DNA of 28,341 nt from a virus, in IMG/VR virus record IMGVR_UViG_3300042465_009243, positions 1 through 28,341 of that record; one strand, written 5' to 3'. Below are positions 2,001 to 19,957 of this stretch, piece after piece. The number at the start of each line of letters is the position of its first letter. The stretch's first letter is position 1. The notes beneath the pieces were generated by a model, which saw only the letters and a list, made by a program, of their open reading frames with translations, was not told where the DNA came from and did not search any database. Both the position numbers and the translations under genes were made by a program.

Positions 2001-3407
2001 GTGGACGTCCTCGACCTGTTTGCCGGGGCCGGCGGTGCCGACCTGGGCCTGCGCGCGGCTGGACACACCGTGGTGCGCGCCGTGGAGTGGGACGCGGACG
2101 CGTGCGCCACGCTCCGCGCCGCCGGGTGTAGCGAGGCGCGGTGCGGCGACGTGCGCGCTTCCGAGATGTACGAGGAGCTTGGCGTCGTGGGGCTCCTCTG
2201 GGCCTCCCCGCCGTGCCAGGACTGGTCGACGGCGGGGAAGCGCGAGGGCGCGGAGGGCGAGCGCAACGGGTGGCCGTGGACGCTCGACGTGATCGACTTC
2301 CTGCGTTGGACTGGGCGCGGCCCTCGCTGGGCCATCTTCGAGAACGTGCCTGGCCTGCTCCACCACCGCGGGGGGTGCCGGTGCCCGCACGGCCCGCCCG
2401 AGGCGTGCCCGGCGGCCTACTTCCACCGCTGGGTCCTCCCGCAACTCCGCGAGAGGTTCGCCGTGGTCGACTACCGCGTGCTGGACGCCGCCGACTACGG
2501 CGTGCCGCAACACCGGGAGCGTGTCTTCATCGTCTGCGGGCCGGTGCCCATCGAGTGGCCCAAGGCGACGCACGGGGACGCGGCCGCCTCGCGCGGGCTG
2601 TTCGCGCTGGTCAAGCCGTGGCGCACGATCCGGCAGGCCTTGCGCCTGGACGCGCGCCTGGACGCGCGCCTGGACGCGCAGCGGAACTCGGCAGCGAATC
2701 CCGGTCAAGAACGGCCCGTCACGCTCGACGATCCGTGTCCGGCGATCGGCGGCGGTGGGGACCAGATCCTATCGGTGCTCGGCGGCGGTACGAACCCGCA
2801 CGGCAAAGGCGCGGAGCACGAGCGGACGCAGCGCGACCTCACCGATGAGCCTGCAACGACGATCGCAGCGCACGAGGCTGGGAACGGCGGGATGTGGCTC
2901 CTCTCGCAAAATACGGCAGACCTCAAGCCCGCGAACTCGTCAGGCATCTTCGATACCCCAGCGCCGACGCTGTCTGGCGGCAGCGCCAAGTCGAACACGA
3001 ACGGGCGGAGCGTGTTCAGCGCCAACGCCGCGACGCGCAAGAAGTACCTGGACGTGCCGTCGCCGACGGTGACCGCGCAGGAGGAGAAGGGCACCCGCGC
3101 CTCCGTGGCCAGCGGCTATACCTTCAACGGCGGACCCGACCGAGCCAGCGACGCGGTGTTTCTCGGGGCGGGAATCCGTCGATTGACGATCGCCGAGTGT
3201 GCAGTGCTCCAGGACTTTCCGGAGGACTACCCGTGGCAGGGCACGAAGACGGCGCAGTACCGCCAAGTGGGAAACGCCTGCGCGCCACGCGTGGTCGAAG
3301 CGCTCGCGCGCGCTGTAGCGGCCGCAGACGCGGCGCCGCCGCGCACGGATATGCTCTCCATCGCCGTGGCCGCCGCCGACCACGCACTTCGCCCGAGGAC
3401 ACCATGA
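2001..3407 (+). CDS. DNA (cytosine-5) methyltransferase, orphan phage type
   Basis: 468 residues, a full-length C5 methyltransferase that transfers methyl from S-adenosylmethionine to cytosine in DNA. Motif I is DLFAGAGGADLGL at 5-17. Motif IV is ASPPCQDWS with catalytic Cys72. Motif VI is ENVPG at 114-118 and motif VIII is QHRERVFIV at 170-178. The C-terminal motifs are LQDFPEDYP from 403 and QVGNACAP ending at 429. The region between VIII and IX, expected to hold target recognition, contains a 12-bp tandem repeat and four DxPxxT-like segments. The GTG start lies three bases after the previous stop and directly precedes motif I, so no upstream start is needed. No restriction enzyme is adjacent; in phages such orphan enzymes usually protect viral DNA from host restriction. 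Target sequence is unknown. Confidence 0.96.
   Translation: MDVLDLFAGAGGADLGLRAAGHTVVRAVEWDADACATLRAAGCSEARCGDVRASEMYEELGVVGLLWASPPCQDWSTAGKREGAEGERNGWPWTLDVIDFLRWTGRGPRWAIFENVPGLLHHRGGCRCPHGPPEACPAAYFHRWVLPQLRERFAVVDYRVLDAADYGVPQHRERVFIVCGPVPIEWPKATHGDAAASRGLFALVKPWRTIRQALRLDARLDARLDAQRNSAANPGQERPVTLDDPCPAIGGGGDQILSVLGGGTNPHGKGAEHERTQRDLTDEPATTIAAHEAGNGGMWLLSQNTADLKPANSSGIFDTPAPTLSGGSAKSNTNGRSVFSANAATRKKYLDVPSPTVTAQEEKGTRASVASGYTFNGGPDRASDAVFLGAGIRRLTIAECAVLQDFPEDYPWQGTKTAQYRQVGNACAPRVVEALARAVAAADAAPPRTDMLSIAVAAADHALRPRTP
2643..2678 (+). repeat. Three perfect 12-bp direct repeats inside the methyltransferase gene
   Basis: CGCCTGGACGCG occurs three times head to tail at 2643, 2655 and 2667. 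It keeps the reading frame and encodes RLDARLDARLDA at about residues 215-226, at the start of the variable region after motif VIII. Copy number could change by slippage without a frameshift. Confidence 0.9.
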
Positions 3408-8767: not shown

Positions 8768-8809
8768 CAGGTGCAGGTGTGCTACCACGAGGACGTCGGA
8801 GTGCTCACG

Positions 8810-9253
8810 ATGTTCTCGCCGGACCAGCTCGACCGCGACTTCACCTACTGGCCGCCAACCGAGGCGACCGCGCCACGGTACGCCGCGATCCGAGAGGCGG
8901 AGCAGGCGCTGCACGCGCTGTTCGCCATGTTGCGCGCGCGCGGAGAGAGGTGGGTGGCCGAGTTTTCCATCCAGCGCGAACACCCGGGCGGCCGCCTCAC
9001 CGTCGCTGACTGCGAGGAGGTAAACGCGCGGACGCGCGCCTTCGCCGAGGTGCTTGACGCCCAGGCCCCCGACGGAGCCGACAAGGCCGCGGCTTACCGC
9101 TGCATCCGGCTTGCTCGCAACGCCGCCAACGAGTTCATCATGGCCTGCGTCACCTACCAGAGCCCCTGCGCCGACGTGCTCCGCATCGCCGCGGACGAGA
9201 TCGTCAAGGCGCGTTGGCAGGCGTGCAGCGCTGTCGCCCTCGACGGGAAGTAG
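8810..9253 (+). CDS. Acb2/Tad1-hairpin-like protein, possible cyclic-nucleotide sponge
   Basis: 147 residues from the ATG at 8810, which has GGAG eight bases upstream and gives an N-terminus like this family; an in-frame GTG at 8771 would add 13 residues. Residues 11-28 (FTYWPP then RYAAIR) resemble the FxYHPP...RYxxIR opening of phage Acb2 proteins, with Trp14 where His is usual. Residues 83-110 (DAQAPDGADKAAA then IRLARNAANEFIM) resemble the loop and second helix of the Acb2/Tad1 hairpin. Between them lie about 50 extra residues, including a second helix candidate at 69-84. Acb2 and Tad1 sequester the signalling nucleotides of CBASS and Thoeris defence. The gene sits in an accessory position between portal and HNH endonuclease. 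Family membership is a judgement from motif memory, not a search. Confidence 0.6.
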   Translation: MFSPDQLDRDFTYWPPTEATAPRYAAIREAEQALHALFAMLRARGERWVAEFSIQREHPGGRLTVADCEEVNARTRAFAEVLDAQAPDGADKAAAYRCIRLARNAANEFIMACVTYQSPCADVLRIAADEIVKARWQACSAVALDGK

Positions 9254-9257
9254 GCAG

Positions 9258-9749
9258 GTGGCGCGTCGCCTTCGAGACGACCGGCCCCTGGCGGAGCGGT
9301 TCTGGGACTACGTCGACAAGGGCGAAGGCGCCGACGCGTGCTGGGAGTGGGCAAAGGCCATCATGCGAACGGGGTATGGCTGCGTCCGCTCCAAGAACGT
9401 CACGCTCGCTTGCCACCGGGTCGCCTGGGAGTTGACGAACGGGGTCATCACCGACCCCGACGTGTGCGTCCTGCACCGCTGCGACAACAGGAAGTGCGTT
9501 CGTCCCGACCACCTGTTCATCGGCACGCGAGCCGACAACGTGCGGGACATGCACGAGAAGGGGCGCGGTGCTGGGCAGTTTGCCCGCGGAGACGCTCACC
9601 CGCGCAGCAAGGTCACGACGGGCCAGGTGCTACAGATCCGTGCGCGCCGGGAGGCGGGCGAGACCATGCCCGCCATCGCAAAGGACTACGGGATCTCGCC
9701 GGAGAACGTCTCCGGCATCACGAACGGCCACCACTGGACACACGTGTAA
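9258..9749 (+). CDS. HNH endonuclease with C-terminal helix-turn-helix
   Basis: 163 residues from GTG at 9258, four bases after the previous stop. The core is the HNH type common in phage homing enzymes: ACHRVAWELTNG (His53), VLHRCDNRKCVRPDHLFIGT with His73, Cys75, Cys80 and His85, then ADNVRDMHEKGR. The two Cys residues probably bind a structural metal. Residues about 117-160 form a helix-turn-helix (VLQIRARREAGETMPAIAKDYG then SPENVSGI), a usual DNA-recognition partner. All catalytic residues seem present. Being free-standing between portal and zinc-ribbon genes suggests a homing endonuclease rather than a packaging nuclease. Its stop overlaps the next ATG (TAATG). Confidence 0.92.
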   Translation: MARRLRDDRPLAERFWDYVDKGEGADACWEWAKAIMRTGYGCVRSKNVTLACHRVAWELTNGVITDPDVCVLHRCDNRKCVRPDHLFIGTRADNVRDMHEKGRGAGQFARGDAHPRSKVTTGQVLQIRARREAGETMPAIAKDYGISPENVSGITNGHHWTHV

Positions 9750-18806: not shown

Positions 18807-19499
18807 ATGGGCGTCACGGTCACTACATTCTTGAACGACACTACGATGGTAGCCGCCGACATGCGCGCCAACCTTGAGGCGCTCCGGCAGTTCACCAATC
18901 GGGGTGCCGTCATCGCCGACTTCACCGGCACGTTTCGCAGCCGAAACTTCGTAAGGCCGGAATCGTACGGAATGCCCTCTCCAAGAACCGTGATGGCGTC
19001 CGCGGTTGTATGGGGAAGCGGCGAGACGGGAGCCGTTGTCGACCGCGCCTACGCCACCTACGACTCCATGGATACGACGTGGAGGTGGGTGCCTGGAGCG
19101 TCGCGGACCATCCTGGTTCCGGAAGCCGGGATAGCGGAGATCACGGTGAACGCCTGGGCGTGGCATGTGCATTCGGAGCAGGAGTTTCCGGAAGTGGGGA
19201 CATACGACAACACGCTGCTTTACGCAGCGAAGATGGCCATCCGCGTGGGTGGCACGGTCCAAACGTCTACCGAGCGGCGCGTATGGGATGCTGGCCGCCA
19301 GCCGTTGACAAACTACTACGAGTCCGGCTTCTATCGGTACTCGGCCGTAAACCGGTCAATGTCTACGTTAGTGCAACTGGCGGAGGGAGAGCAAACAGTG
19401 GGATTGGTGAGCAAGATGGAGGAGATGACCGACACAGACGACCTGGGGCGCCTGGTGATTGGCGGTCGCGGGTGCATCATCGAGTTCATGCGGCGATGA
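18807..19499 (+). CDS. Virion structural protein, fibre-like (third of three)
   Basis: 230 residues; ATG with GAGG six bases upstream. The N-terminus (VTTFLNDTTMVAADMRANLE, then ALRQFTNRGAV) again has a short strand followed by a helix, as in the two preceding genes. The body is beta-rich (TTWRWVPGASRTILVPEAG, AEITVNAWAWHVHSEQE), suggesting a jelly-roll-like head. Its stop overlaps the ATG of the acetyltransferase gene (ATGA), so both are made together. Confidence 0.72.
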   Translation: MGVTVTTFLNDTTMVAADMRANLEALRQFTNRGAVIADFTGTFRSRNFVRPESYGMPSPRTVMASAVVWGSGETGAVVDRAYATYDSMDTTWRWVPGASRTILVPEAGIAEITVNAWAWHVHSEQEFPEVGTYDNTLLYAAKMAIRVGGTVQTSTERRVWDAGRQPLTNYYESGFYRYSAVNRSMSTLVQLAEGEQTVGLVSKMEEMTDTDDLGRLVIGGRGCIIEFMRR

Positions 19500-19957
19500 G
19501 GCCTATGCTTGTTGGCGACCTCCCATCCGTCATCCGGCTGGCTGAGGAGGAGTGTGAGCGGTTCGGGCCGGTCGCGCGGTGGATTCAGACGTGGTTCGGC
19601 GAAGGGCCAGCCCGCGCAACGCTGGTTGAGGTCGATGGCGACGTAGCGGGGTTCAGCCTCTGCATGCCCGTCTCGCCCGAGCCGTGGTGGGAGTGTCGGC
19701 TTGCAGCCGTCGCGCCGACGCATCAACGATGCGGCATTGCCCGACGATTGCTGGAAGCGGACCAGCAAGCGGCGCGTCAAGCGGGGCGCGACATCGTCTT
19801 GACGGTGGCGGTCAACAACGAGCCAATCAAAGCCTTAGTGGCCCATCTTGGCTATCGGCGCATTCTGACGCAGCGGCTGGCGTTTCCGGACGGGACGGAG
19901 GCACACGTCCTCCGCTGGACTCACATAGGCATCCCGTACTCCGCGACCGCGGGGTAG
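19496..19957 (+). CDS. GNAT-family N-acetyltransferase
   Basis: 153 residues, ATG at 19496 overlapping the preceding stop. GNAT enzymes transfer acetyl from acetyl-CoA to an amine. The core is clear: beta 4 (LAAVAPTHQ), the acetyl-CoA loop QRCGIARRLLE at 77-87 in the Q/RxxGxA form, the AVNNEPIKALVAHLGYRR segment at 105-122 with Asn107/108 and the LGYR end. A VDGDVAGF strand lies at 47-53. Substrate is unknown. Its place inside the tail region, coupled to a fibre gene, is unusual; it might modify a host protein or a virion protein. Confidence 0.88.
   Translation: MRPMLVGDLPSVIRLAEEECERFGPVARWIQTWFGEGPARATLVEVDGDVAGFSLCMPVSPEPWWECRLAAVAPTHQRCGIARRLLEADQQAARQAGRDIVLTVAVNNEPIKALVAHLGYRRILTQRLAFPDGTEAHVLRWTHIGIPYSATAG

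Follow-up and report, generated by a model that had tools for sequence, protein, structure and literature searches.

Sponge proteins of the Acb2/Tad1 family decide whether phages survive the CBASS and Thoeris defences, and their ligand range hinges on small changes in a helical hairpin. As oligomers, both Acb2 and Tad1 capture cyclic di- and trinucleotides, and Tad1 captures gcADPR as well, so that the defence effectors stay off (PMC12043709). Acb2 of phage T4 (Vs.4, PDB 7uq2) has 88 residues, with a second helix of the form T-x-L-x-E-A-x-M-W. Tyr8 is required for it to bind cyclic dinucleotides (binding is disrupted in Y8A), and Phe82 makes a stacking contact with the ligand (PMC12657218). 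The anti-Thoeris protein Tad1 (PDB 7uav) has a corresponding ENA-x-x-T-x-LEEALMW helix; an N-terminal beta sheet is also present in Tad1 (PMC12043709). A third group, the short YHPP class, consists of proteins of about 68 residues that match the same Pfam family, PF24729, and make up phrog_1454.

The DNA analysed here, referred to as the window, is an IMG/VR virus record of 28,341 bases with 67% G+C. It encodes a DnaB-like helicase, a C5 DNA methyltransferase, a large terminase, a P22-like portal and a major head protein, together with tail or internal virion proteins, a gene set that identifies its source as a tailed phage. Among the late genes, at 19499–19957, is one for a GNAT-type acetyltransferase, whose codon adaptation is low (CAI 0.50). 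Just past the portal gene are two genes that concern us here:

8793–9746, + strand: two-gene insert without counterpart in the sibling contig IMGVR_UViG_3300017777_006778 (blastn, junctions read)
8810–9253, + strand: long-form Acb2/Tad1-hairpin-like protein, 147 aa (open reading frame, PF24729 and phrog_1454 matches, own profile with shuffles, hhalign)
9258–9749, + strand: HNH endonuclease, 163 aa, second gene of the insert (HNH_3, 42.8 bits; phrog_1872, 9.7e-30)

The hairpin gene runs from an ATG at 8810 to a TAG ending at 9253, with GGAG a few bases 5′ of the start. Its codon usage (CAI 0.75, GC3 0.90) is that of the phage's own genes, the terL and portal values being 0.74–0.75. The HNH gene starts with GTG at 9258, and its TAA stop, ending at 9749, overlaps the ATG of a zinc-ribbon protein.

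Relationship to the Acb2/Tad1 hairpin family

The original prediction, made from the sequence alone, was that the 147-residue protein resembles the Acb2/Tad1 hairpin. PF24729 (Acb2_Tad1_hairpin) was the single Pfam family matched (24.9 bits, E=2.4e-5), although the score falls below the curated gathering cut-off of 27 bits; the characterised sponges T4 Acb2 and Tad1 score 71 and 33 bits. The match came in two stretches, residues 13–50 on profile positions 2–39 and residues 65–107 on positions 10–53. The PHROGs library returned phrog_1454, the family of 68-aa YHPP proteins, at E=6.9e-10, and phrog_31113 at E=1.2e-5. On a profile of our own, constructed from 80 YHPP-type proteins taken from viral contigs, the protein scored 22.4 bits, which was reached by none of 2000 shuffles and compares with 13.9 bits for T4 Acb2. 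The signal was found in both parts of the protein, as the score of residues 1–54 alone was reached by 0 of 2000 shuffles and that of residues 55–115 alone by 1 of 2000, and 377–665 control windows from the phage's other proteins gave at most 6.4 bits. In a profile comparison by hhalign against 24 YHPP-class relatives the probability was 93.8% (E=1.7e-7), compared with 0.1% for an unrelated protein of the window. Because the Pfam and PHROGs libraries, our own profile, the shuffles, the real-protein controls and hhalign concur, we accept homology to the Acb2/Tad1 hairpin family as established at the level of profiles, despite the sub-threshold Pfam score. By the same comparisons the nearest group is the short YHPP class.

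The original prediction also allowed an anti-Thoeris role. Tad1 carries the same Pfam hairpin domain, but a Tad1-type profile did not match the protein (−1.7 bits), which excludes a Tad1-type identity at the profile level.

Other searches returned little. With E limits of 1 or 10, tblastn of the protein or its parts matched nothing in phage or plasmid records, there was no relevant match in NCBIfam or PADLOC, and a direct PDB sequence search gave chance matches only. A genome scan with the relatives' alignment yielded 105 pattern matches, none confirmed against the 147-residue protein. The DNA pattern FTYW[PA]P-x7-Y matched nine stretches, recovering the same virus only, with the remaining eight being chance matches.

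Some actinophage relatives carry the annotation 'cyclic nucleotide sequestering protein', assigned by homology. The same annotation is given to a 172-aa hairpin protein of Curtobacterium phage AddiRose (340–858), which has a long C-terminal extension; it too is a long member of the family, but its extension differs from that of the protein studied here. In Microbacterium phage Quhwah, which is unrelated to the phage of the window, an 80-aa hairpin-family gene (367–609) lies between the portal and major head protein genes. Several family members probably carry wrong labels: hairpin genes of Paenibacillus phages Likha, Xenia and PBL1c are called 'phosphomannomutase', that of cyanophage S-2L 'tail assembly protein', and the Tad1 gene of Bacillus phage BSTP3 'HNH endonuclease'.

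Signature residues, architecture and predicted structure

The motifs that had suggested the family were located at residues 11–16 (FTYWPP) and 23–28 (RYAAIR) near the N-terminus, and at residues 87–110, the stretch P87-DGA-DKAAAYRCIRLARNAANEFI. The F-T-Y-x-P-P arm, the RY..IR where helix 1 begins, a Pro turn, a Lys and an Ala-Asn near the end of helix 2 are shared with the short YHPP class. The 29 N-terminal residues align without gaps with Y8–L36 of T4 Acb2, sharing its Tyr8-x-Pro-x-Thr-Glu and Ala-Ile-x-x-Ala-Glu elements in the arm and helix 1. Y13 aligns both with T4 Tyr8 and with the Tyr of YHPP, and the Tyr-x-Pro-Pro arm is kept. The His of YHPP is replaced by Trp, as originally noted. 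The short class has nine invariant positions, of which the protein keeps four (F11, R28, P87 and I110); at the other five, His, Arg, Thr, Trp and Ala have been replaced. The differences extend through helix 2, where the Arg, Thr, Glu and Trp of the short class are lost. In place of the signature T-x-L-x-x-A-x-M-W the protein has R97-C-I99-R-L-A102-R-N-A105, which keeps the Ala and one aliphatic residue, and the near-universal S-R-E before helix 2, Thr, Leu-Glu and Met-Trp have become G-A-D, Arg97, Ile-Arg and Asn-Ala respectively. The position equivalent to T4 Phe82 is M111, which is not aromatic; short-class members have Ala there.

The protein had been described as unusually long for the family, and the spacing between its conserved ends confirms this. 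The distance from Y13 to A105, the position equivalent to the helix-2 Trp, is 92 residues; in T4 Acb2 it is 68, 24 fewer than here, and in the short class 48. This long spacing is real. Relative to the short class, the hairpin is longer by 44 residues, and helix 2 is followed by a tail of 30–35 residues in which one more helix is predicted. The segments are:

8840–8923, + strand: first hairpin-profile match, the FTYWPP arm with the first half of helix 1 (residues 11–38, profile positions 1–28)
9005–9097, + strand: second hairpin-profile match, from a segment like helix 1 through the proline turn into the start of helix 2 (residues 66–96, profile positions 12–42)
9167–9238, + strand: C-terminal extra helix, no profile match (residues 120–143, from AF2 models)

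Profile positions 15–28 were matched twice, by residues 25–38 and again by residues 69–82. The score of segment 55–90 against the hairpin profile was reached by 0 of 2000 shuffles; helix 2 alone was modest (81 of 2000 shuffles reached its score), and segment 115–147 did not score above shuffles. Because the profile matches helix 1 twice, we favour a partial duplication of the hairpin, in the order helix 1, helix 1′, helix 2, which on these profile matches is probable. Read from the N-terminus, the protein would then comprise a YxPP arm and helix 1, followed by a second segment resembling helix 1, then helix 2 and finally a C-terminal helix. The domain duplication raised in the original prediction is in this sense the best reading, but it is unproven, since a local self-alignment of the two halves scored no better than shuffles (2168 of 5000 reached it). 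Because the two halves have no detectable mutual similarity, we also consider, as a tentative alternative, an unduplicated two-helix hairpin interrupted by an insertion at its tip or inside helix 1, with a pocket like that of T4 Acb2. MAFFT indeed places a single 44-residue insertion inside helix 1 when the protein is aligned to the short class, and T4 Acb2, which has about 20 extra tip residues relative to that class, still matches PF24729 in one stretch. A pure insertion, however, leaves unexplained both the twice-matched profile positions and the match of segment 55–90. The choice between the two readings bears on architecture, and an insertion would also fit a sponge.

Structure prediction by AF2 with 27 relatives aligned, an alignment that itself presupposes homology, gave a model of mean pLDDT 76 and pTM 0.62 with helices at residues 4–10, 21–52, 65–85, 90–116 and 120–143. 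Prediction without an alignment gave the same helices at a poor pLDDT of 55. There was no strand in either model, nor the N-terminal beta sheet of Tad1. The extra helix (65–85) and the extension of about 35 residues past the second helix, with its own helix at 120–143, are thus supported by prediction, as had been proposed. A Foldseek search of PDB, suggested as a check on the original prediction, did not return Acb2 or Tad1; its matches were generic helical bundles, all at E≥0.39. Among viral models, the best match was A0A6J5S3V7, a protein of an uncultured Caudovirales phage with 30% identity over 146 columns (probability 1.00, E=1.5e-3); the alignment-free model retrieved nothing, A0A6J5S3V7 included. 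In this structure-search comparison, A0A6J5S3V7 resembles the protein in length and helices, with the 30% identity spread over almost the full length; at 128 aa it is 19 residues shorter. On this single match, the long form may not be unique to the phage of the window. The original prediction was not refuted on its own terms: a profile match, long helices in the models and the Tyr were found. The protein is best described, by sequence, as a divergent and unusually long member of the known Acb2-type helical-hairpin superfamily.

The two-gene insert and the sibling phage

The phage is present in three records only in scans of viral and genome contigs, and the hairpin gene occurs in the same virus only. 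IMGVR_UViG_3300042549_009616 is that virus (99.97% identical), with the gene unchanged. The third record, the 45.6-kb sibling contig IMGVR_UViG_3300017777_006778, is 99.2–99.8% identical over the shared stretch but is without exactly 8793–9746, the hairpin and HNH genes, and has seven bases instead. Neither gene was found elsewhere in the sibling record. The hairpin and HNH genes behave as one insert, flanked by the portal gene on one side and the zinc-ribbon gene on the other, and the proposed cargo position between portal and HNH genes is strongly supported by this comparison. The insert is probably a mobile, swappable piece of counter-defence cargo.

Since the insert contains an HNH gene, we infer that homing is its natural explanation, with the hairpin gene as a passenger. 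The locus resembles intergenic phage HNH homing endonuclease genes in having a free-standing HNH gene at an intergenic site that is empty in a near-identical relative; it differs in having a hairpin-protein gene upstream. This pairing is not general, as 50 other HNH relatives examined in viral contigs included no case of a hairpin-gene neighbour. The intergenic leader to the left of the insert (8768–8809) shares GGTGTGCTACCAC with the gap downstream of the sibling's portal gene and is otherwise diverged, while both sides are 99% identical, a pattern compatible with co-conversion around a homing site.

The two phages also differ elsewhere. The sibling is without 201 bp at window positions 2804–2991, an in-frame difference of 67 codons between near-repeats of about 13 bp. 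The site lies inside the C5 DNA methyltransferase gene (2001–3407), between the enzyme's conserved blocks, and target recognition by the methyltransferase may differ between the two phages.

Proposed function and alternatives

We propose that the 147-residue protein is a nucleotide sponge, and put the probability of this at about one half, on the basis of its homology, the kept Tyr arm and the dispensable, mobile setting of its gene. The protein would oligomerise, and its N-terminal Tyr arm would pack on a cyclic nucleotide produced by a host defence such as CBASS, keeping the bound signal away from the defence effector. The two-gene cassette would carry the hairpin gene as cargo, with HNH cutting of cassette-free relatives spreading both genes. 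Absence from the near-identical sibling is as expected for a dispensable counter-defence gene. As helix 2 has been rebuilt, the putative sponge may have a changed oligomer or ligand, and the loss of the helix-2 signature makes an altered ligand range plausible. A more specific version seems rather improbable to us: a one-and-a-half-hairpin sponge, made by part-duplication of helix 1 and addition of the C-terminal helix, with a new oligomer and pocket and a ligand range unlike that of Acb2 or Tad1, carried as homing-endonuclease cargo. Against a sponge of any kind stand the sub-cut-off Pfam score, the five changed invariant positions, the missing aromatic at the Phe82 position and the lack of a sponge match in PDB.

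Alternatively, the protein may belong to the family by descent and have lost nucleotide binding, its scaffold being reused with a rebuilt helix 2, for example to bind a protein of the host or the phage. Replacement of the near-universal helix-2 residues, the modest score of helix 2 alone and the two further predicted helices all fit such a loss. However, the helix-2 Trp is also missing, in an alignment to T4 Acb2, from the p26 protein of PDB 8h2j, which we take to be PaMx33 Acb2, so that the signature is not strictly required, and the Tyr-x-Pro arm is kept. We consider lost binding unlikely, while giving it more weight than the two readings that follow. One is that a helical, alanine-rich protein has collected weak scores by chance; the PF24729 score is indeed under the cut-off, and of 14 control genomes 10 also gave weak sub-threshold PF24729 matches at E≤10. 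This is contradicted by the shuffles and hhalign, with which independent libraries and profiles and the real-protein controls concur, and we regard it as very improbable. The location just past the portal gene suggests instead a small head or packaging protein of the phage lineage, the gene sitting between portal and the gene that precedes the scaffold region, much as the Quhwah gene sits between portal and major head protein. Yet the gene is entirely missing from the near-identical sibling and so is not needed for the capsid, making a structural role equally far-fetched.

If the protein is a sponge, its rebuilt helix 2 and second segment like helix 1 would illustrate how much stretching the hairpin scaffold tolerates. 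The most valuable new finding is that one of two near-identical phages carries the gene and the other does not, a natural test of the gene's effect. Linkage of a sponge gene to an HNH endonuclease would suggest a route by which counter-defence genes spread.
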